Source: Lachnospiraceae bacterium (lineage in GTDB: Bacteria > Bacillota > Clostridia > Lachnospirales > Lachnospiraceae). From it: a stretch of 64,000 nt of DNA. The notes under the pieces are model-generated. The model ran no database searches. It was not told the DNA's origin and worked only from the letters and a program-made list of their open reading frames with translations. The position numbers and the translations under genes were made by a program. This document shows, one piece after another, positions 12,670 to 27,315 of this stretch; positions within the stretch are counted from its first letter, which is position 1, and each line of letters opens with the position of its first letter. The stretch lies in contig JAFUIR010000011.1 in the NCBI GenBank assembly GCA_017468395.1, forward strand, positions 62,001 through 126,000, written 5' to 3'.

Positions 12670-12818
12670 GGTACGACGAAGAAGCAGAGAGCGAGGGTGC
12701 TTTCGGCTTAGGCTTTGTCGTGTACCGGCAGGAAAAATCATTCTCATACGCATACTGTTTATATGGATAAACGAAAAGTGCAGAGGATTTTCTGCACTTT
12801 TTTTTGTGCACGACAAAG
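12670..12818 (+). promoter_or_regulatory. alternating-structure leader (attenuator) of ABC-F gene
   Basis: Three segments can pair in competing ways. Segment A GGTACGACGAAG (12670-12681) pairs with B CTTTGTCGTGTACC (12713-12726) through 5 + 7 bp around a two-base bulge. B also pairs perfectly over 10 bp (12713-12722) with C CACGACAAAG (12809-12818), which lies just before the ABC-F Shine-Dalgarno and after a terminator hairpin. A:B and B:C exclude each other, the layout of a transcription or translation attenuator controlled by ribosome stalling. Confidence 0.65.
12774..12805 (+). terminator. leader terminator upstream of ABC-F gene
   Basis: An 11-bp stem, AAAAGTGCAGA with TCTGCACTTTT (12774-12784 and 12791-12801), a 6-base loop and a run of T to 12805. 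It lies 34 bp before the start codon with no second promoter between, so expression needs readthrough. Confidence 0.85.
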
Positions 12819-12839
12819 CACTTTGAAAGGAGGGATTTT

Positions 12840-14324
12840 ATGTCCTTGATTAGTGTAAATCATTTAACTTTTTACTATGAAGGCAGTTTTGACAATGTTT
12901 TTGAAGATGTGTCATTCCAGATTGATTCCGATTGGAGGCTTGGTTTCGTAGCCAGAAACGGCAGAGGAAAGACGACCTTCTTAAATTTGCTCATGGGAAA
13001 ATACGAGTATCGGGGCAGTATTACGGCTTCGGAAAAATTCGATTATTTTCCTTTTGAAGTGGAAGATGCATCCAAAAACACGTTGGAGATTGTAGACGGT
13101 ATTTTTCCTGACAATGAGTTCTGGAAAATTTGCAGGGAACTGACTTTGCTTCAGGTGGATGCAGAGGTATTGTACAGACCTTTTGAAACCTTGAGTTTTG
13201 GAGAACAGACCAAGGTAATGCTGGCGGTTTTGTTTTCCATGGAGGAACATTTTTTACTGATTGATGAGCCCACCAACCATTTAGATGCACCGGCCAGGGA
13301 ATTGGTAAGGGATTATTTAAAGCAGAAAAAAGGGTTTATTTTGGTTTCCCATGACAGAGATTTTTTGGATCAATGCATCGACCATGTGCTTGTCATTAAT
13401 AAGACTAATATTGAGGTTTTTCAGGGCAATTTCAGTACTTGGTGGGAGAATAAAAACCGCCGGGATGCTTTTGAACTGGCTGAAAATGAGAAACTGAAAA
13501 AAGAGATTGGCAGACTGGAAGCCTCTGCCCGAAGAACAGCGGATTGGGCGAAAGATATAGAAGCTTCCAAGATAGGGAAGCGGTCCGACAAGATTGAGTG
13601 GGCGATAGACTCCCGTGCGTATATCGGAGAGAAATCCCGCAGAATGTCCCAGAGAAGAAAGAACTTAGAGCGCAGGCAGACCCGTGCCATCGAGGAAAAA
13701 TCGGCGTTACTTCACAACATTGAATCTGCGGAGGTTTTGAAGTTATTTCCACAAAGGCACCACAAAGAAGTGCTTGTGAAAATGGAGGATGTGAGGATTT
13801 CCTATGGTTCTAAGATGCTTCCGGCTGTGAATCTGGAAATCCGTAACGGGGATAGGGTGGTGCTGCAGGGAGCCAACGGCTGTGGAAAATCCAGCGTCAT
13901 AAAGGCGCTTTTACAGGCGGTTTCTTACACCGGCACTGCCAATACTGCAAGCGGGCTTATTATTTCTTACGTTTCCCAAGACACATCTCATTTAAACGGC
14001 ACGTTGGCAGAGTACGCTGAGGCACAGGGGATTGACTTGACGGTTTTTCTGGCTCTTCTTCGGAAGTTGGATTTTTCCCGTGCGCAGTTTGAAAAGAAGA
14101 TGGAAGACTATAGCGGCGGTCAAAAAAAGAAGGTGCTGTTGGCGGCAAGCCTTTGCAAACAGGCGCATTTGTACATATGGGATGAGCCATTGAACTTTAT
14201 TGACGTCTTCTCCCGAATGCAGTTGGAGAGCCTGATTTTGGAGTTTAAACCGACTATGCTTTTAGTGGAACATGACAAGACTTTTGTGGAGAAGGTGGCA
14301 ACGAAAAATCTGCTTATCACCTAA
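12840..14324 (+). CDS. Lsa-family ABC-F ribosomal protection protein
   Basis: 494 residues, two ABC cassettes without membrane domains. Cassette 1: Walker A ARNGRGKTT, signature LSFGEQTKV, Walker B LLIDEPTNHLD. The linker (about 190-305) is the arginine/lysine-rich antibiotic-resistance domain. Cassette 2: GANGCGKSS, DYSGGQKKKV and YIWDEPLNFIDVFSRMQ. The opening SLISVNHLTFYYEGSFDNVF and this last motif are characteristic of Lsa/Vga-type proteins, which dislodge lincosamides, streptogramin A and pleuromutilins from the ribosome. Start at 12840 after GAAAGGAGG. Expression is probably drug-induced through its leader. Confidence 0.88.
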   Translation: MSLISVNHLTFYYEGSFDNVFEDVSFQIDSDWRLGFVARNGRGKTTFLNLLMGKYEYRGSITASEKFDYFPFEVEDASKNTLEIVDGIFPDNEFWKICRELTLLQVDAEVLYRPFETLSFGEQTKVMLAVLFSMEEHFLLIDEPTNHLDAPARELVRDYLKQKKGFILVSHDRDFLDQCIDHVLVINKTNIEVFQGNFSTWWENKNRRDAFELAENEKLKKEIGRLEASARRTADWAKDIEASKIGKRSDKIEWAIDSRAYIGEKSRRMSQRRKNLERRQTRAIEEKSALLHNIESAEVLKLFPQRHHKEVLVKMEDVRISYGSKMLPAVNLEIRNGDRVVLQGANGCGKSSVIKALLQAVSYTGTANTASGLIISYVSQDTSHLNGTLAEYAEAQGIDLTVFLALLRKLDFSRAQFEKKMEDYSGGQKKKVLLAASLCKQAHLYIWDEPLNFIDVFSRMQLESLILEFKPTMLLVEHDKTFVEKVATKNLLIT

Positions 14325-14371
14325 TATTTACCATGTTAAAAATTCTTTAAGATTCCTTAAGAATTATTGAA

Positions 14372-14401
14372 TTGTCAGAAAAATTATGATACCTTTATAG
14401 T
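14372..14401 (+). promoter_or_regulatory. promoter of the ZorAB-like operon
   Basis: TTGTCA (14372-14377), 18-bp spacer, TATAGT (14396-14401). It lies in the 180-bp gap after the ABC-F gene. Confidence 0.55.
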
Positions 14402-14407
14402 AGCAAT

Positions 14408-14442
14408 AGCGCCGGTGTGAATGGCATCACTGGCGCTGTTTT
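14408..14442 (+). terminator. GC-rich hairpin at the expected 5' end of the operon mRNA
   Basis: AGCGCCGGTG pairs with CACTGGCGCT (14408-14417 and 14428-14437, one G-U), followed by only GTTTT. It begins where the 14372 promoter should start transcription. It may be a weak terminator/attenuator, a 5' stabilising stem, or the end of the ABC-F transcript. Confidence 0.5.
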
Positions 14443-14505
14443 GACCACGAAACTGACAACTTACAAAGGCAACGCGTGTCTATGGGGCACGGGAGGAGAG
14501 TGCGA

Positions 14506-15657
14506 ATGAAAAACAGACTTTACTATTTATTATTTATCTGCTATGCGGTGGTGTTTGCAATAATTTTATATGTAAACGGTATCTTTACCGGCGAAGTAAC
14601 AGATTTTGTAAATGTGGCGATTAATATAGGATTTTTGCTCATTATCGGTGTGCTCTTTGTCATATCCACAGTGAGTTTTACAAGACTTAACAGTTGTACT
14701 GCGGAGCTGGAGAACATGACATGGGCGCTTCAGCAGGAGTATACTGCTTCCGGCGGAAAAAATCTTGCGGAACTTTACATGGAAAAGAAAGACTTTTTTG
14801 ACAACGATGAACTTCGGGAAGCATATAGCAAATATCGTACACGGATTAAAAGTTACCGCACCAGAAGAGGGTATTCAAATACCTGCGACCTTGAGGAATA
14901 TATCAATGAAGATTTGATTGACCAGGTGGGAATGAACTTTTTTAACGCCGGTATTTCCGGAACTATGACAGGTTTGGGTATTTTGGGTACGTTCCTTGGT
15001 CTGTCTCTTGGTCTGGGTTCCTTTAACGGAGATGATATTTATACAATCTCAGATAATGTGGGTCCCCTGCTTTCCGGTATGAAGGTGGCTTTCCACACTT
15101 CTGTATACGGTATTTTCTTCTCCCTTATTTTTAACTTTTCATATAGAAGTATTATGTCTGATGCCTATGATAAATTGGACAATTTCTTAAATGCTTACAG
15201 GCAGTATGCGATGCCTATTGTGGCAACCGAAGATGAAAATATGTCTGCAATGCTTGTTTATCAGGCAAATATGAACAATTCCTTAAAGCAGATGTTGGAA
15301 CTGATGAAAGGTAATGCCATGGAGCAGACGGCAGGTGTTGAGCGCATCGTAAACCGCTTTATGGTGCAGATGAACGATGCTCTTGGTACGAATTTCGAGA
15401 AACTTGGCAATGATTTGAAGAAGTCTTGTGATGCGCAACTTAACTTTGCGGCAAACAGCAGAGACTTGATGAAGGCGGCTTCTGCGATGCTTGAAACGAA
15501 CCGGGAAGCCCAAGAGAGATTTGCTATGTTGGCGGAAAGTCAGGAAACTTTCGCAAAAGAACTTTTGGCACAAAAGGAAGAAATTGCGGCAACTTGTGAC
15601 GAAATCGGTAACCAGTTATATGCATTTGACCAGATGAGGAAATTGTATGAAAAATAG
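14506..15657 (+). CDS. MotA/TolQ/ExbB-family proton channel, ZorA-like
   Basis: 383 residues. Four membrane helices are visible: 5-26, 36-57, 148-170 (NAGISGTMTGLGILGTFLGL) and 193-214 (KVAFHTSVYGIFFSLIFNFS), with a cytoplasmic domain between TM2 and TM3. The last two match the channel helices of MotA/TolQ/ExbB and of ZorA from the Zorya anti-phage system. A tail of about 165 residues after TM4 is helical and probably coiled coil; in ZorA an elongated cytoplasmic tail transmits the signal. RBS GGGAGGAG supports 14506 over an upstream GTG. It overlaps the next gene by 11 bp. Confidence 0.82.
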   Translation: MKNRLYYLLFICYAVVFAIILYVNGIFTGEVTDFVNVAINIGFLLIIGVLFVISTVSFTRLNSCTAELENMTWALQQEYTASGGKNLAELYMEKKDFFDNDELREAYSKYRTRIKSYRTRRGYSNTCDLEEYINEDLIDQVGMNFFNAGISGTMTGLGILGTFLGLSLGLGSFNGDDIYTISDNVGPLLSGMKVAFHTSVYGIFFSLIFNFSYRSIMSDAYDKLDNFLNAYRQYAMPIVATEDENMSAMLVYQANMNNSLKQMLELMKGNAMEQTAGVERIVNRFMVQMNDALGTNFEKLGNDLKKSCDAQLNFAANSRDLMKAASAMLETNREAQERFAMLAESQETFAKELLAQKEEIAATCDEIGNQLYAFDQMRKLYEK

Positions 15658-16609
15658 ACGAAAGAGTAGAGAGGCCTTTGCGGAGCACAGTTTTTGGCAG
15701 TCCTATTCGGATATGATGGCGGCGCTACTGCTAATCTTTATACTGATTATTGCTATCACATTGGCTATTTACAGGCAGAAAACAACGGATTTGGAAGAAA
15801 CCAGATTGGATTTGAGCGCTGCCGAGCAGCAATTAAATGCCACGATTATTGATTTGGAAAATTCCAAGATAGAATTGGAAAATTCTAAGGTTGAAATTGA
15901 AAATTCTAAAATTGAGTTGGAAAAATCCAATGCGGATTTGATGGCTTCTTTGGCGGAGTTAAAGGAACTTTATGCCCAGGCGGCATTGACGCAGGATGAA
16001 CTGAACAAGGCATATTTGGAAATTGAAAATGCGCAAAATGAACTTGCCACTACCAAGAGTGAGTTGCAGGATATTGTAGGTATCAGAACAGATATTATAG
16101 GTGCTTTACAATCGACTTTTAACAATTCCAGTATGTCGGTGGACGCCCAGACAGGTTCCATTGCTTTTTCATCAGATGTAATGTTCGCTTTTGACAGTGC
16201 GGAACTTAATACAGCCAGCAAAGCATCTTTGAAAGAAGTAATCCCTAAGTATTTGGATGTTCTTTTGCAGGATCAGTACAGAGAATATATTGCAGAAATT
16301 ATCATTGAAGGACATACAGATACCAATGGTTCTTATAAAGCGAACATGCAGTTGTCCTATGACCGTGCCAGTGCGGTGGCAAATTTCTGCTTGGACGAAA
16401 AAAATGGTCTGACCAAGTCTAAAATCGGACAGTTACAGTCTCTGCTTACGGTAAACGGCCGTTCTTACAGTGACCCGGTTTATAAAATCGGTGCCAATGG
16501 TCAGAAGACAAACCAAGTAGACATGGCGGCGTCCAGACGTGTGGAAATTAAGTTCCGTCTGAAAGAGGACGAGATGATTAAGAAAATTTCTGAGATTTTG
16601 AACCAGTAA
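15647..16609 (+). CDS. MotB/OmpA-family protein, ZorB-like
   Basis: 320 residues. A single membrane helix (22-42) begins with WQSYSDMMAALLLIF, where Asp22 corresponds to the proton-carrying Asp of MotB and ZorB. Residues 45-155 form an extracellular coiled coil containing four 7-residue repeats. Residues 170-308 form an OmpA-like peptidoglycan-binding domain: FAFDSAEL, IIEGHTDTNGSY, YDRASAVANF and ASRRVEIKF. Together with the preceding gene it should form a proton-driven motor anchored to the cell wall. Start is inside the preceding gene after GAGGAAATTGT, so the two are translationally coupled. Confidence 0.85.
   Translation: MKNRRKSREAFAEHSFWQSYSDMMAALLLIFILIIAITLAIYRQKTTDLEETRLDLSAAEQQLNATIIDLENSKIELENSKVEIENSKIELEKSNADLMASLAELKELYAQAALTQDELNKAYLEIENAQNELATTKSELQDIVGIRTDIIGALQSTFNNSSMSVDAQTGSIAFSSDVMFAFDSAELNTASKASLKEVIPKYLDVLLQDQYREYIAEIIIEGHTDTNGSYKANMQLSYDRASAVANFCLDEKNGLTKSKIGQLQSLLTVNGRSYSDPVYKIGANGQKTNQVDMAASRRVEIKFRLKEDEMIKKISEILNQ
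15857..15940 (+). repeat. 21-bp tandem repeats (4 units) in the ZorB-like gene
   Basis: Four in-frame 21-bp units encode ENSKIEL, ENSKVEI, ENSKIEL and EKSNADL (residues 71-98). The first three are nearly identical in DNA; the fourth has diverged. They extend the stalk coiled coil and could vary in number by slippage. Confidence 0.85.
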
Positions 16610-16621
16610 GGAAAACCTATC

Positions 16622-17380
16622 ATGACGGAAGAAATCAGGAAGCAAAGGGCAGCGGATTTCCGGCGTGCGAAGGAAAAAATTGTGGGCACAGAGCGGCAAC
16701 GTCAGGGAATAGGAACGTTGTCGGAAAAGACTACCCATGCTATTTTGAAAAATTATTATGCGCCGGATGAGGACATGCATGAAATTCCTATAGAAAACTA
16801 TGTGGCAGATATTTATACCGGTTCTGAAATCATAGAAATCCAGACCAGACAATTTAACCGTATGCGGGATAAGTTAACTGCTTTTTTGCCTCTTTATCCG
16901 GTGACTATAGTGCACCCGGTTCCGAGGGAGAAATGGCTCATATGGATTGACGAGGAAAGCGGCGAGTTTACCCAAAAAAGAAAATCGCCTGTCCGGGGAA
17001 GTGCATATCATGCCTTTGGAGAATTGTACAAAATAAAAATGTTTTTAAAAGACCCTAATCTTCGGATTAAGCTGGTGCTTATGGATTTGGAAGAGTACCG
17101 GCTGTTAAACGGCTGGAGCAAGGATAAGAAAAAAGGGTCTACCAGATATGACAGAGTGCCTCTGGAAATCGTAGAGGAAGTGGATATAGAATGTTTGCAG
17201 GATTATATGCAATTTATCCCCTACGAACTGGAAGAGCCCTTTACGGTAAAGGCATTTGCCAAGGCCGCTCATATCAGACCACAACTTGCGCAGGTGGTCA
17301 TCAATATCCTATTTTATGTGGAAGTTATTGAACGGGTAGGCAAAGAAGGAAATGCCTGGCTATACAGGGTGGCAGAGTGA
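16622..17380 (+). CDS. putative PD-(D/E)XK-like protein, third gene of the ZorAB-like operon
   Basis: 252 residues, no named function. The N-terminus is basic and helical (KQRAADFRRAKEKI). Residues 55-80 read PIENYVADIYTGSEIIEIQ: an Asp (63) followed by a hydrophobic strand with ExQ (Glu72, Gln74), the arrangement of a PD-(D/E)XK nuclease core, with Glu35 as a possible upstream acidic residue. Residues 205-250 look like a winged helix. It lies 12 bp after the ZorB-like gene and before the operon terminator. Similar stand-alone proteins occur widely in Clostridia, so linkage to the motor genes could be incidental. Confidence 0.6.
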   Translation: MTEEIRKQRAADFRRAKEKIVGTERQRQGIGTLSEKTTHAILKNYYAPDEDMHEIPIENYVADIYTGSEIIEIQTRQFNRMRDKLTAFLPLYPVTIVHPVPREKWLIWIDEESGEFTQKRKSPVRGSAYHAFGELYKIKMFLKDPNLRIKLVLMDLEEYRLLNGWSKDKKKGSTRYDRVPLEIVEEVDIECLQDYMQFIPYELEEPFTVKAFAKAAHIRPQLAQVVINILFYVEVIERVGKEGNAWLYRVAE

Positions 17381-17414
17381 TTTTGCAAGTTAGTATATCA
17401 GTATTGCAACTTGG

Positions 17415-17445
17415 GGAAAGTGCTATTGTGCACTTTCCTTTTTTT
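17415..17445 (+). terminator. operon terminator
   Basis: GGAAAGTGC/GCACTTTCC (17415-17423 and 17430-17438) with a 6-base loop and seven T. It closes the three-gene operon. Confidence 0.9.
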
Positions 17446-18468: not shown

Positions 18469-19101
18469 TTATGTCTCAGGTTTCTTTCGAATCACATAGG
18501 AGAACACATCGAAATTGGTGAACCCCATTTCCCTTAGTATATTGCAGCTGTTATCCAGATCCTCCCGTTTATTAAAGCGGGGAATCAAAGGTACGCGTAC
18601 CAGAACCCTTTGAGAGTCTATATGCTCTCTTAGGGTTTTTAGATTCTGCATTACCCGAAAATTGCTGTTTCCGGTATAAGATTCATAGGTGCCGGGGTTC
18701 ATGTCTTTGATGTCTACAATATATTCGTCCACCACATCAACCACTTTTTGTAGGTTTTCCGGTGGAACATTCAGAGAGGTTTCCACGGTGATCTGCCACT
18801 GCGGAGGGCAAATGCTACGAAATTCCCGGATGAAATCGCTGTGAAGCAATGACTCGCCTCCCCCAAAGACAATGCCTCCACCGGTGGCAAGAAAATAAAG
18901 ATGGTCTATTTTCACTTTGTCTAAAAGTTCTTCGGGGGTGACATTTTGGTATTTTGTGCCCGGTGCCCAGGCGTGGGGGTTTAGGCAGTATTTACACTTT
19001 AAGGGACATCCGTAAGCCCCCACCAAGGTGGTAACGCCTTTACCGTCGATACCGAGGCGGTGTCTGTGGATGGAGATGAGGGGCAGGCATACGTTACTCA
19101 T
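18469..19101 (-). CDS. minimal radical SAM enzyme (PflA-like activase family)
   Basis: 210 residues. The radical SAM motif GCPLKCKYC (C32, C36, C39; CxxxCxxC) follows IDGKGVTTLVGAYG, the PflA-style opening. FGGGESLL is the SAM-binding GGE block, and DEYIVDIKDMNPGTYESYTG resembles the activase core. There are no extra cysteines for auxiliary clusters. It should generate a 5'-deoxyadenosyl radical in the cytoplasm. I chose ATG 19101 because it overlaps the upstream gene's stop (AATGAGTAA), indicating translational coupling. The target is unknown; no pyruvate formate-lyase-like gene is nearby. Confidence 0.85.
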   Translation of the reverse strand: MSNVCLPLISIHRHRLGIDGKGVTTLVGAYGCPLKCKYCLNPHAWAPGTKYQNVTPEELLDKVKIDHLYFLATGGGIVFGGGESLLHSDFIREFRSICPPQWQITVETSLNVPPENLQKVVDVVDEYIVDIKDMNPGTYESYTGNSNFRVMQNLKTLREHIDSQRVLVRVPLIPRFNKREDLDNSCNILREMGFTNFDVFSYVIRKKPET

Positions 19102-19627
19102 TTGGTGTACCCTCTGTAGGTTCCTCCCAAGGAGCGGGACTAATGTCTCCGGCGATTTCCCATTCCGTTTCGGGTGCAGTGGTTTCCGGAGCAACAATTT
19201 CGCCTACCATTTCTATGTCTCCGGATATTTCGGTGGCATTTTCGATTTCGCAGCTATCTTTGGTTGCCAAAGGTTCGTCAGGATTGGGGAGTGCAACATC
19301 GCCGTCCAATTCATAGGTGTCCGGGTCGGCCATCATTCCTGCCACTTCTTCCTGTCCAAATGGATTTTTCAGAATGTCCGATGTATCGCAGGCTGTCATT
19401 GTTGCGCATACTCCTACGGACAGACCAACCACAGCCACGGCTTTTCCAAGGTTCTGCCGAATGACCAGTTCTCTCTCCAAATAGCGCAGTTCCGATTCGC
19501 ATTTGGGACAGGTTCCGAGACAATCTCCCTGATGTTTACATTCAGACACCACAAATTCTATATCATTCGCTTCCGCAATTTGTCTTCTGATTTCTTTCAA
19601 AGCCTTACATTTCTCTTTACCCTTCAT
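19094..19627 (-). CDS. Cys-motif membrane protein coupled to radical SAM enzyme
   Basis: 177 residues, not recognised as a named family. The N-terminus is helical and charged, then cysteines occur at 30, 36, 40 and 43 (SECKHQGDCLGTCPKC), a pattern able to bind a metal or iron-sulfur cluster. Residues 62-78 form a membrane helix ending in MTAC, and residues 81-177 are acidic and Pro/Thr/Glu-rich. The protein therefore has a cytoplasmic metal site and a disordered outer tail. Its last codons overlap the radical SAM start. It could be the enzyme's substrate, partner or membrane anchor. Confidence 0.65.
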   Translation of the reverse strand: MKGKEKCKALKEIRRQIAEANDIEFVVSECKHQGDCLGTCPKCESELRYLERELVIRQNLGKAVAVVGLSVGVCATMTACDTSDILKNPFGQEEVAGMMADPDTYELDGDVALPNPDEPLATKDSCEIENATEISGDIEMVGEIVAPETTAPETEWEIAGDISPAPWEEPTEGTPNE

Positions 19628-21296: not shown

Positions 21297-21510
21297 AGGT
21301 GTCTGACGGGGCAGGAAATCCAAACCGGTGTAAACGCAAAATGTGTGCCCGGCAAGGTGGAAAGTTCAGGGTCAGGTGAAAAGGGAAGCAGGTGAGAGGC
21401 CTGCACGATCTCGTCGCTGTAAGTAGGGAATGTTTCTTCAAAAGTGTCACTGAAAGAAATTTTGGGAAGGCCGAAGGAGCGTGATGATCTACAAGTCAGA
21501 AGACCTGCCT
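21297..21510 (+). promoter_or_regulatory. cobalamin (AdoCbl-class) riboswitch
   Basis: The conserved cobalamin aptamer blocks occur in order: AGGTGTC at the 5' end, GTGAAAAGGGAAGCAGGTGA, the GCACGATCTCGTCGCTGTAA segment, a CACTG block, GGGAAGG, TGATGA and the closing AGTCAGAAGACCTGCC (B12 box region). Binding of cobalamin should reduce expression of the downstream B12-uptake genes through the terminator at 21611. The intergenic span 21218-21701 is otherwise occupied by its expression platform, including a perfect ATAAAGCA/TGCTTTAT hairpin at 21570-21588 that could be an antiterminator element. Confidence 0.93.
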
Positions 21511-21610
21511 ATTATTCGGTACTAAAGTGACCACGAGGAATTGGTTAGGTACAGATTGATGGCAGACTTATAAAGCAGTGTGCTTTATGGTGTTATGCAA
21601 AAGAATCTCC

Positions 21611-22757: not shown

Positions 22758-24185
22758 TTAATCATCATCGTCATGTACATGGGATTTGGGAAGGGAGAAA
22801 ATAAATTCTGTTCCTACGCCTTCGGTACTGATTACGTTAATATGCTCTCCATGGGAAGCAATGATTTCTCTTGCGATGGAAAGCCCCAGTCCGGTACCTT
22901 TTTTATCTTTACCGCGGGATAAATCTGATTTATAAAAGCGATCCCAAATCATTTTCAAGTCGTCTTTGGGAATACCGATTCCCGTGTCCTTTACGGACAC
23001 AAATATCTTGTTTTTCTTTTCGGATGTTTCAATGGTAATGACGGAATCGTGGTGACTGAATTTAATAGCATTATCCAAGAGGTTATACAGAACCTGCTGG
23101 ATTTTGCCCATATCTGCGGACACATACATTACATCCCCGGTGAGAACCAGGGCGATGGCAATGGTTTTTTGGCGGCAGGTTCCTTCAAAGGAAGCGGCCG
23201 TATTACGGATGACCTGATTAATGTCAAAGTTGGTTTTGTCCAGCAACATTCCCTTGGTGTTTAAGTTGTTTAAGGTCAGCAGACTGTTGGTAAGTTTGGT
23301 CAGTCTTTCCGTTTCGTTTAGTACAATGTTTAAATATTTCTCATGTAACTGCGGGGGGATGGTTCCGTCAATCATAGCCTCCAGATAACCTCTGATAGAA
23401 GTCAGCGGAGAGCGGAAGTCGTGGGAAATATTTGCCACAAACTTTTTCTGGTCGTCCTCTGTGCGGGCCATTTCGCTGGCCATATATGACAGGCAGGCTG
23501 CCAGATAACCAATTTCATCGTCACTGTCCACCTGAAATTCGTAGTGCATATTACCGGAGGCGTATTGCTCTGTGGCATAAGTAATTTTCCGCAAAGGGAC
23601 ATAAACCATCTCCGTAAAGAAAATAAGGATAATCAGAGACAGTAAAAATACAATTACAGTAGTGATAAAGGCGATGTTTTGGATATTGGCGCAGGAACTC
23701 TCGATGCTGTCCATGGACATATGTATTGCTACATAGCCTTTTACTTTATAGTCTGCGGTAATAGGTGCCAGTACATTGAGCATTTCCTCTTTATAGGAAT
23801 CAAAAAAAGTACTGACATTGTAATAGGAGCCTGCGGTAATAGTAGGGTCAAAATTTTCAATGATAATTTCCTTTTCCAGATTCAAGGGTGAGGAAGTATC
23901 CAAAATCATACGCCCGGAGGGGTTAATAATCCATATGTCTGAATTTAGATATATGGACAACATGTCTAACTGTTTTTTTACGATTTCAATAGAAGTTTCA
24001 TTGGCATAAAGGTCGCTGGCGTAATTTTCTGCGATCAGGGTTGCCTCCGAGTAAAGGGTGTTGGCCTCTTCGCGGATTAACTGATCCCTCGTAATGCCCG
24101 GAACAAAATAATTTACCATAATAAAGGCAAAGATGCCGAATATGAAATAGCCAAGGAGAAATTTTAAGTATAAAGTTTTTTTCAT
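22758..24185 (-). CDS. sensor histidine kinase (HAMP, HisKA, HATPase)
   Basis: 475 residues. TM1 is at 7-27, a sensor region of about 140 residues faces outside, TM2 is at 170-192, and then HAMP (193-245, VPLRKITYATEQYASGN). HisKA carries the H-box FVANISHDFRSPLTS. The ATPase domain has the N-box NLLDNAIKFS, G1 DTGIGIP and G2 GTGLGLSIAR. The C-terminus ends in an unusual HVHDDDD tail. GGAG lies 9 bp before the ATG. It follows the response regulator gene by 43 bp in the mutS2-RR-HK order. The stimulus is not evident. Confidence 0.92.
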   Translation of the reverse strand: MKKTLYLKFLLGYFIFGIFAFIMVNYFVPGITRDQLIREEANTLYSEATLIAENYASDLYANETSIEIVKKQLDMLSIYLNSDIWIINPSGRMILDTSSPLNLEKEIIIENFDPTITAGSYYNVSTFFDSYKEEMLNVLAPITADYKVKGYVAIHMSMDSIESSCANIQNIAFITTVIVFLLSLIILIFFTEMVYVPLRKITYATEQYASGNMHYEFQVDSDDEIGYLAACLSYMASEMARTEDDQKKFVANISHDFRSPLTSIRGYLEAMIDGTIPPQLHEKYLNIVLNETERLTKLTNSLLTLNNLNTKGMLLDKTNFDINQVIRNTAASFEGTCRQKTIAIALVLTGDVMYVSADMGKIQQVLYNLLDNAIKFSHHDSVITIETSEKKNKIFVSVKDTGIGIPKDDLKMIWDRFYKSDLSRGKDKKGTGLGLSIAREIIASHGEHINVISTEGVGTEFIFSLPKSHVHDDDD

Positions 24186-24936: not shown

Positions 24937-27315
24937 CTATTTAAAGGTTACAATTGTGACACCTGCGTCACCTTCTCCGTATTCTCCAAGACGGTATTCT
25001 TTTACATATTTCAGCCGTTTCAAGTGATTGTGCACAGCCGCCCGAAGTGCGCCGGTTCCCTTTCCGTGTACCACACGGACGGTAGAAAGGTGAGCCAAAT
25101 AAGCATCATCCAGATATTTATCCAAAGCTGCAATGGCTTCGTCCGTAGTTTTTCCAAGGAGGTTAATTTCGGCGGAAATGTGGAGGGCTCTGCTCATATT
25201 CATTTTGCCTAAGCCACCTTTGGAAGAGGTGAAACTTGTGCCGGGTAAAGAGTCTTCGTCTATGAGTACTAAATCCCGGATATTTACCTGAGAGCGGATA
25301 ATGCCGCATTGTACAAAAAGATTACCTTTCGCATCAGGCAGGGTGCTGACAGTTCCTTTCAGTCCCATGGAGACAACTTTTACGCTGTCGCCCTTTTTCA
25401 GTTTGGCCGGGTCTAAAGTTTTCTTAGGCGCATCCGCTTTCTTTAATGTAAGTTTTGAATTTTTTTCATCAATTTTATTTCGGATGTTCTGTCGTTTCTT
25501 TTCCAAGTCCTTGATATCGCTGCCGGAACCGACTTTGTTGAAATCACGGATGGTTTCGTCCGCCACGTCTTTTGCTTCCTGCAGGATTTGTCTGGCCTGT
25601 TCATTGGCTTCCCTGAGAATCCGTTCCTTGGCGTTGTCAATTTTTTCATTTTTTGCTTTTAACTGACCTTCCAGAGTTTTGATGCGCTCTTTGTAAGCGG
25701 CGATTTCTTTGTGCTCTTTTTCGATGGTCAGGCGGCTTGCCTCCAGATCGGCAATAACATCTTCAAAACTTTCGTCTTCCTTACTGATTTGTTCTTTTGC
25801 AGCCGCTATAATTTCATCCGGAAGGCCCAGTTTGGAAGAAATTGCAAAAGCATTACTTTTTCCGGGAATACCGATTAACAGGCGGTAAGTAGGGCGCAAA
25901 GTTTCCACGTCAAACTCGCAGCAGGCATTTTCCACAAAGGAAGTGGAAAGTGCGTAAAGTTTTAATTCGCTGTAGTGTGTGGTAGCCATAGTGCGGATGC
26001 CTCTGTCGTGCAAATGATTCAAAATGGCAATGGCCAGTGCCGCACCTTCCGTAGGGTCTGTGCCGGCGCCAAGTTCATCGAAAAGACACAGGGAGTTCTC
26101 ATTGGCATTGGCTAAAATAGAAACAATGCTGGTCATGTGGGAAGAAAAAGTACTGAGACTTTGCTCTATGCTTTGCTCATCGCCGATATCTGCATAAACT
26201 TCTTCAAAAATGGATAGTTCAGAGCGGTCCAGTGCAGGAATATGCAGTCCGGCTTGTCCCAGTAGTGTAAATAATCCAACGGTCTTTAAGGATACGGTTT
26301 TTCCACCGGTATTAGGACCTGTAACAATCAAAAGGTCAAAGTCTTTTCCCAACTGGATGTCGATAGGCACTACCTTCTTTTTGTCCAGCAGGGGGTGTCT
26401 TCCTTTGCGGATATGAATGTAGCGGTCTGTATTAAAAATAGGTTTGGTAGCATTCTGGTCCAAGGCCAGTTTGGCTTTGGCAAATACAAAATCCAGATGT
26501 GTCATCATTTTTTGGTTGGTTGCCAGTTCCTGCGTATGTTCACCGGTCATGGCGCTTAAGGAGGCCAGAATAATTTCAATTTCTTCCTGTTCTTTGATGG
26601 CCAGTTCCTTTAATTGATTGTTCAAATTCACGACGGCAGCAGGCTCAATGAAATAGGTAGAACCGGTGGAAGACTGGTCGTGAACCATACCGGAAACCTG
26701 ACTTTTGTACTCTGCCTTCACGGGGATGCAATAGCGGTTGTCACGCATGGTAACCACTGCATCCTGTAAATAACTGCGGTAAGAACCGTTCACCATGGAG
26801 TTTAACTGGGAATGGATTTTCTCACCGGTGAGGGTAATCTGTCTGCGGATGCTCTTTAAAGCAGGGCTGGCATCATCGGCGATTTCCTCCTCCGAAAGAA
26901 TACATCTGTGAATTTCATTTGCAACCTGGGTCAGAGGAGAAAGAGCCTCAAAATAGCCATCCAAACTGTCGGAGGGAGTTTCTTCCTTGTCTTTTTTGCC
27001 GTAGGTTTTAATACGGTTTACATTGTCCAAAAGTGCAGCAATGCGTAAAAGTTCCGGTGCGGACAGGGTACTGCCGATTTCCAAAGTGCGGATGGCAAAG
27101 CCCAAATCTTTGTTGCCCCCAAAAGAAGTACTTCCGCAGCGAAACAGTCTGGCAAGACCGTCTGCAGTTTCTGTCTGGGCTGCGTTTATTTCTTCCATAT
27201 TTGTGGAAGGAGTCAGCGCAGCGCAAAGTTTTTTGGCTGGCTCGGAGTCTGCTTTTTCGGTTAAAGAGCCAATGATTTTGTTATATTCCAATGTTCGTAA
27301 AACTTTTTCGTTCAT
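24937..27315 (-). CDS. mutS2: MutS2 endonuclease/ribosome-rescue ATPase
   Basis: 792 residues, the normal MutS2 length. The MutS-type core has Walker A GPNTGGKTV near residue 328, Walker B CLFDELGAGTDP and the His of ATTHYSELK. A coiled coil (about 510-610) is followed by the KOW-like domain (LKKGDSVKVVSMGLKGTV) and a C-terminal Smr domain with VVHGKGTGALR. The Smr LDLR motif reads INLLG, so the usual catalytic Asp is Asn. MutS2 suppresses recombination and, in Bacillus, splits collided ribosomes. Start chosen at 27315, with GGAAGAGG upstream; a longer in-frame version would cross the preceding terminator. Confidence 0.95.
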   Translation of the reverse strand: MNEKVLRTLEYNKIIGSLTEKADSEPAKKLCAALTPSTNMEEINAAQTETADGLARLFRCGSTSFGGNKDLGFAIRTLEIGSTLSAPELLRIAALLDNVNRIKTYGKKDKEETPSDSLDGYFEALSPLTQVANEIHRCILSEEEIADDASPALKSIRRQITLTGEKIHSQLNSMVNGSYRSYLQDAVVTMRDNRYCIPVKAEYKSQVSGMVHDQSSTGSTYFIEPAAVVNLNNQLKELAIKEQEEIEIILASLSAMTGEHTQELATNQKMMTHLDFVFAKAKLALDQNATKPIFNTDRYIHIRKGRHPLLDKKKVVPIDIQLGKDFDLLIVTGPNTGGKTVSLKTVGLFTLLGQAGLHIPALDRSELSIFEEVYADIGDEQSIEQSLSTFSSHMTSIVSILANANENSLCLFDELGAGTDPTEGAALAIAILNHLHDRGIRTMATTHYSELKLYALSTSFVENACCEFDVETLRPTYRLLIGIPGKSNAFAISSKLGLPDEIIAAAKEQISKEDESFEDVIADLEASRLTIEKEHKEIAAYKERIKTLEGQLKAKNEKIDNAKERILREANEQARQILQEAKDVADETIRDFNKVGSGSDIKDLEKKRQNIRNKIDEKNSKLTLKKADAPKKTLDPAKLKKGDSVKVVSMGLKGTVSTLPDAKGNLFVQCGIIRSQVNIRDLVLIDEDSLPGTSFTSSKGGLGKMNMSRALHISAEINLLGKTTDEAIAALDKYLDDAYLAHLSTVRVVHGKGTGALRAAVHNHLKRLKYVKEYRLGEYGEGDAGVTIVTFK

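Follow-up and report, generated by a model that had tools for sequence, protein, structure and literature searches.

The DNA considered here is a 64,000-nucleotide stretch (the window) of contig JAFUIR010000011.1 from a gut bacterium of the Lachnospiraceae, listed as contig C6 of its 2.6 Mb, 92.7% complete draft genome, and within it we examined two overlapping genes for ZorA-like and ZorB-like proteins together with the gene that closely follows them. The locus is best read as an orphan ZorAB unit of two genes that has a promoter of its own and is placed before an unrelated and widespread chromosomal gene, a reading to which we give a probability of about 0.6; the third gene looks like a bystander, a chance neighbour of ZorAB. 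Judged by sequence comparison, the pair is of ZorAB type and neither flagellar nor Tol/Exb; it forms a two-gene arrangement found at different places in different genomes, has no recognised Zorya effector beside it and occurs independently of FliG. An earlier reading of the same DNA (the original prediction) had tentatively joined all three genes, which are listed below, into one Zorya cassette.

14506..15657, + strand: ZorA-like A subunit gene (383 residues, ATG start), encoding a channel protein of MotA/TolQ/ExbB type whose helical tail is short

15647..16609, + strand: ZorB-like B subunit gene (320 residues), encoding a transmembrane helix with Asp22, a coiled linker and an OmpA-like peptidoglycan-binding domain

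16622..17380, + strand: third gene (252 residues), encoding a probable PD-(D/E)XK domain and a winged helix, judged to lie outside the ZorAB unit

The ZorA-like frame, for which an alternative GTG start at 14476 is possible, overlaps the ZorB-like frame by 11 bp, and a gap of 12 bp separates the latter from the third.

For the identity of the pair, the profile and structure databases point the same way. In PADLOC, the first gene matches the ZorA profile (1.2e-18) and the second that of ZorB1 (1e-64), and the top names in NCBIfam are likewise ZorA and ZorB, although both fall under the curated cut-offs. Compared with all PDB sequences, ZorA matched the ZorA chains 8vvn_C (1.3e-12) and 8qyk_A (2.3e-10), with no flagellar, Tol or Exb A-subunit chain at E<=1, and ZorB matched 8qyd_F (3e-17), its top matches being chains of solved ZorAB complexes; on this point the original prediction is borne out. 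In Pfam, MotA_ExbB lies barely above its cut-off in ZorA (residues 148-220), OmpA is clear in ZorB (1.5e-14) and MotB_plug is slightly under its cut-off. Further ZorAB loci were collected from 40 of the 49 other genus genomes that carry ZorB and from 10 genomes of the family, giving 50 in all; the family search had matched ZorB in 30 of 200 genomes at E<=0.001, of which the 11 at E<=1e-37, source genome included, were taken, and L131 (G190), where a ZorB-domain match stands with no ZorA, was excluded. Trees of the A and B subunits, for which 43 of the 50 loci were eligible and 21 of them were entered alongside the window and reference sequences, place ZorAB apart from Mot/Exb/Tol, where the original prediction had looked to a grouping with flagellar or Tol stators as evidence against it; their support is weak (79/92 and 89/99) and the branches are long, and the identity therefore leans on the profile and PDB scores. 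The row nearest to the window in both trees is L160, a copA-ZorAB-clpB copy. Asp22, predicted together with the OmpA domain, is present in 43 of 44 ZorB rows (window included), the row of L176 reading X there, and all or nearly all of the 44 rows also keep W17, S19, N233 and R240 in ZorB and T155, T162, T198 and S199 in ZorA. Of the four transmembrane helices assigned to ZorA, two exceed a cut-off of 1.5 in hydropathy over 19 residues, the others resting on the MotA_ExbB match, and the part after the channel, where a Zorya system would have a long cytoplasmic rod, comprises about 165 residues; the ZorA proteins of relatives are 382-595 residues long overall.

The linkage of the three genes was followed from both sides. 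On the side of the third gene, the set comprised 100 loci, namely the window, 19 loci with flanks of about 1.5 kb (two of them duplicating loci among the following) and 80 loci with up to 6 kb; closed frames were obtained in 78 of the 80 (all except L074 and L085), with at least 1 kb upstream in 75 and on both sides in 73. When all three proteins were compared with these 100 loci by tblastn (E<=1e-3), ZorA and ZorB were found only in the window and in 0/99 loci elsewhere. A third gene occurring mostly away from ZorAB is an outcome that the original prediction had itself named as refuting it, and its caution that the third gene might not belong was right. On the side of ZorAB, the third gene occurs in 0/50 of the other loci, 49 of which include more than 0.9 kb of downstream sequence, and the order ZorA/ZorB/third gene, whose conservation had been proposed as a check, is therefore seen in none of them. 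Across 101 genomes of the genus, the third gene is present in 62, ZorB (E<=1e-40, which leaves 7 of 57 weaker matches uncounted) in 50 and both in 34, with no significant association (p=0.22). ZorA adjoins ZorB in 48/50 loci, the remaining two being cut by contig ends.

Relatives also show the third gene in the surroundings that it has here, minus the pair. In four loci (L034, L037, L038 and L049), an ATP-binding cassette (ABC) gene that is 61-68% identical to the window's left-flank gene (12804-14324) precedes the third gene by about 20-30 bp, and ZorAB is missing from the space between them; L049 also retains the downstream genes, and the other three show the ABC gene only. Other genes follow the third gene in the window at a distance of 4-8 kb, and relatives have them next to it too: the kinase gene at 22758 in 24/88 loci, two of these matches being weak at 24-27% identity (L051, L134), and the gene at 24937, which we take to be MutS2-like, in 19/88. 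A same-strand frame lies within 400 bp upstream in 52/78 loci, in 28 sequence groups, a few of the frames being doubtful, and the third gene thus stands close behind many unrelated genes. It was found in 51/200 family genomes, one weak match included (G193, E 3e-4), and most named records among its close relatives are Lachnospiraceae. On this evidence, namely 0/99 and 0/50 linkage and the four syntenic sites without ZorAB, the three-gene cassette was rejected.

As for what the third gene encodes, it probably belongs to an undescribed, widespread and nuclease-like family of Clostridia. The PD-(D/E)XK core has an alpha-beta-beta-beta-alpha-beta arrangement whose central strands bear conserved acidic residues, and the AlphaFold model (pLDDT, the model's own confidence score, 93.8) fits this pattern, with a helix at residues 36-46, strands at 53-57, 60-65 (carrying D63) and 70-73 (carrying E72), a helix at 78-88 and a strand at 94-109. 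D63-(x8)-E72-x-Q74 is invariant at all three positions in 52/52 aligned homologues (51 of the 78 closed-frame loci and the window), with Q at position 74, where K is usual; the domain alignment holds 50 rows after those with unknown residues were dropped. In a fold comparison of the whole protein, the matches listed were all of winged-helix type, and the N-terminal domain was for that reason predicted and compared separately, giving PD-(D/E)XK matches with middling scores. No family was matched in Pfam, PADLOC or NCBIfam; the sole match in PHROGs is at chance level (E 0.21), and a profile search of the PDB returned only ribosomal protein S25 (E 0.01), over the winged helix. The model and the invariant residues make the predicted combination of a PD-(D/E)XK-type domain and a winged helix probable, at the strength that middling fold scores allow. 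As separate observations, in G258:C78 and G253:C70 a homologue immediately follows a gene for an SNF2-type helicase, and the idea of the third gene as phage cargo was dropped: 56 stretches of the viral collection matched a pattern and 0 encoded a relative of it.

Effectors of known Zorya types were looked for beside the pair and, for ZorC and ZorD, genome-wide; ZorE, ZorF and ZorG were looked for at the locus. Searches by tblastn with ZorC, ZorD and ZorE found nothing in the window and a single hit in the 50 ZorAB loci, a 71-residue, 35% match (E 3e-5) in the family locus L123 that covers the C-terminal end of a ZorD; the positive controls L241 and L243 were recovered, and the E. coli ZorC and ZorE queries matched nothing anywhere in the set. 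Both control genomes belong to the class of the source genome, and in them ZorC (1e-16 and 1e-14) and ZorD (2e-245 and 0) come after ZorB. A PADLOC scan of ten nearby window genes (18469-19627 lay outside it) gave no Zorya match, and for ZorF and ZorG at the locus the absence of a match is by PADLOC alone. The ZorC profile matched none of the 101 genus genomes, the controls being equally silent. At E<=1e-30, the ZorD profile matched nothing in the source genome and 41/101 genus genomes, where the matches listed begin at profile position 407 or beyond of 1171 and were read as other SNF2-type helicases and not as ZorD. An adjacent effector (ZorC with ZorD, ZorE, or ZorF with ZorG) is a defining feature of Zorya and was not found at the locus, for which reason the locus is not classed here as a Zorya system; the draft genome is incomplete, and an effector may therefore lie elsewhere. 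In the titles and abstract openings covered by our literature search, no description of an orphan ZorAB was found.

ZorAB often has recurring neighbours in relatives: copA, a heavy-metal P-type ATPase gene whose substrate is likely copper, lies upstream in 18/50 loci, clpB downstream in 18/50, both in 14/50, and a LUD-domain gene in 9/50. By eye, the neighbours look housekeeping in the 34/50 loci read (L179-L193 were not among these, and L165 was without a frame). The clpB locus of the source genome has neither ZorAB nor copA alongside. The flanking features of the window locus are as follows.

14337..14401, + strand: ZorAB regulatory region, with a TTAAGATT-type box and, behind it, the promoter-like hexamers TTGTCA ... 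TATAGT

17413..17440, + strand: intrinsic terminator-like stem-loop behind the third gene, with an 11-pair stem and a T run

12804..14324, + strand: left flank, ABC ATPase gene (ABC_tran matched in two stretches), likely of ABC-F type

The promoter-like site (TTGTCA-18-TATAGT, 14372-14401) scores 10/12, a score tied by two other sites in 14-18 kb, and the scan of that region found 13 sites against 8.6 +/- 3.3 expected; the hexamer score by itself is weak. In L164, which has the copA-ZorAB-clpB order, 61 bp at 87% identity cover the ZorA promoter region, with weaker matches to the upstream region in L160, L161, L162 and L176. Among 40 ZorA upstream regions (a ZorA start was obtained in 39 of 43 loci, and the window was added), the TTAAG[AG]T box occurs in 18, against 5 of 152 control genes, and the box combined with TATGxTA in 14, against 1 of 152; the pattern was picked after the first matches had been seen and the sequences are related, so that p-values for the box are too small. 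The promoter-region match and the shared box make ZorAB look like a self-contained unit that arrived here with its own promoter. The stem-loop is the top-ranked terminator-like site of the scanned region, and the three reading frames, the ZorA/ZorB overlap, the 12 bp gap and the promoter-like and terminator-like sites are all where the original prediction had located them.

Other ZorB-like genes were seen in different company. In L239 and L240, by eye, one stands behind a long frame, beside a gene of 391-402 residues and type IV pilus ATPase-like genes; the 391-residue protein has no PADLOC match. In L244 and L245, a distant ZorB-like gene is followed by a gene of about 316-334 residues, one of which was scanned and gave no PADLOC match. 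Elsewhere in the window, a cobalamin riboswitch (21341-21526) lies upstream of what appear by eye to be a small-protein gene and a transporter-component-like gene.

Several points weigh against an orphan unit beside a bystander. The box is absent from 22/40 ZorA upstream regions. With a gap of 12 bp and no terminator between ZorB and the third gene, joint transcription of all three genes is probable here, judged by position, and a recent functional capture of the third gene in the present strain is possible. The third gene and ZorAB lie on different contigs in every one of the other genus genomes that have them both (33 of 33), but most of these genomes are drafts, and this is weaker than a measured distance. 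The IMG/VR contigs L218 (892-6607) and L219 carry ZorAB between two serine recombinases, so the pair can serve as mobile cargo, which is common among defence genes. No partner of ZorAB was identified elsewhere, and its role is proposed only.

If the pair is an orphan ZorAB unit, ZorA and ZorB would form a 5:2 ion-driven motor, by analogy with the solved complex, in which two ZorB and five ZorA make up a motor that is fixed to the cell wall and driven by ions (PMC11890865); the OmpA-like domain of ZorB would grip peptidoglycan and ion flow past Asp22 would turn or flex the ZorA pentamer with its short tail. The motor may then report or act on the state of the envelope inside the cell via a partner encoded elsewhere, and the third gene would simply have acquired ZorAB as an upstream neighbour. 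In our judgement, envelope sensing or a related housekeeping role ranks first and phage defence with a distant effector second. The latter, in which the two genes defend through an effector elsewhere or alone by ion leakage, we regard as unlikely but deserving of attention. Its main point is the placement of ZorAB between serine recombinases in L218 and L219, with HicA/HicB-like genes near by eye, and the similarity to Zorya in PADLOC and the PDB and the patchy presence (50/101 genus genomes) also suit it. Set against it are the published statements that ZorAB is insufficient for defence (PMC8565338) and that in Zorya I deleting each component abolished protection against two phages (PMC11890865), as well as the absence of a ZorC profile match from the 101 genus genomes, with controls equally silent, the absence of a ZorD profile match at E<=1e-30 from the source genome, and the housekeeping look of the neighbours in relatives.

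That the pair serves as an alternative flagellar stator is barely credible, even though it has MotA_ExbB and OmpA domains, with MotB_plug slightly under its cut-off, and the source genome has FliG. A separate flagellar-type MotA lies near FliG in that genome and, by eye, is followed by a MotB-like gene; in the PDB the pair matches chains of ZorAB and none of flagellar MotA; and no association with FliG, the flagellar-stator feature examined, was seen: ZorB is present in 8/16 genus genomes without a FliG match and 42/85 with one (p=1.0). The FliG calls used E<=0.001 and include some weak partial matches, which counts somewhat against our argument. The FliG-independent presence and the separate MotA led us to reject this reading. 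A three-gene Zorya variant with a PD-(D/E)XK effector is very improbable and largely refuted; the 12 bp spacing, the terminator-like site only behind the third gene and the probable nuclease-type fold speak for it, but they are outweighed by the missing linkage, the lack of significant co-occurrence, the four sites without ZorAB and the many unrelated genes that precede the third gene elsewhere.

A tempting three-gene Zorya variant is hereby removed as unsupported, and it emerges that a two-gene unit lacking known effectors can lie behind hits to the ZorA and ZorB profiles. The relaxed '_other' classes of PADLOC require only two co-localised defence genes (PMC8565338), and could therefore count ZorAB-only units among the defence systems. 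Should the pair work with no effector next to it, it would offer a simple setting in which to study the sensing or action of the ZorAB motor itself. Tentatively, and with more doubt than conviction, we suggest that ZorAB without an effector in cis, in half of the genus and with its own box, has a job in Clostridia beyond recruiting an adjacent nuclease, for example sensing cell-wall damage, and that Zorya is one defence use of a broader family of envelope-sensing motors. A 2025 study describes Zorya as distant kin of the family's non-flagellar transporters (PMC12505986).

Compared with known systems, the third protein resembles SfsA, YaeQ and NucS-type PD-(D/E)XK proteins at 7-16% identity and middling Z scores, and differs from them in its C-terminal winged helix and in having no sequence family match. 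The MotAB flagellar stator has in common with the pair the MotA/ExbB-type channel and the OmpA-like domain, but here it is represented by its own MotA near FliG, on which the presence of ZorAB does not depend. Zorya type II (ZorA, ZorB, ZorE) shares the ZorAB core; in the E. coli record ZorE lies 3 bp behind ZorB, whereas the third gene here is not ZorE-like. In Zorya type I (ZorA, ZorB, ZorC, ZorD), ZorC and ZorD adjoin the pair, whereas none is recognised beside it here, and the ZorA of the type I record has 729 residues against 383. The ZorA and ZorB of type I are nonetheless homologous to this pair, PDLC00609 is the best PADLOC profile both for this ZorB and for the ZorB of L241, which bears ZorC and ZorD, and the locus may work like the ZorAB part of a Zorya system.

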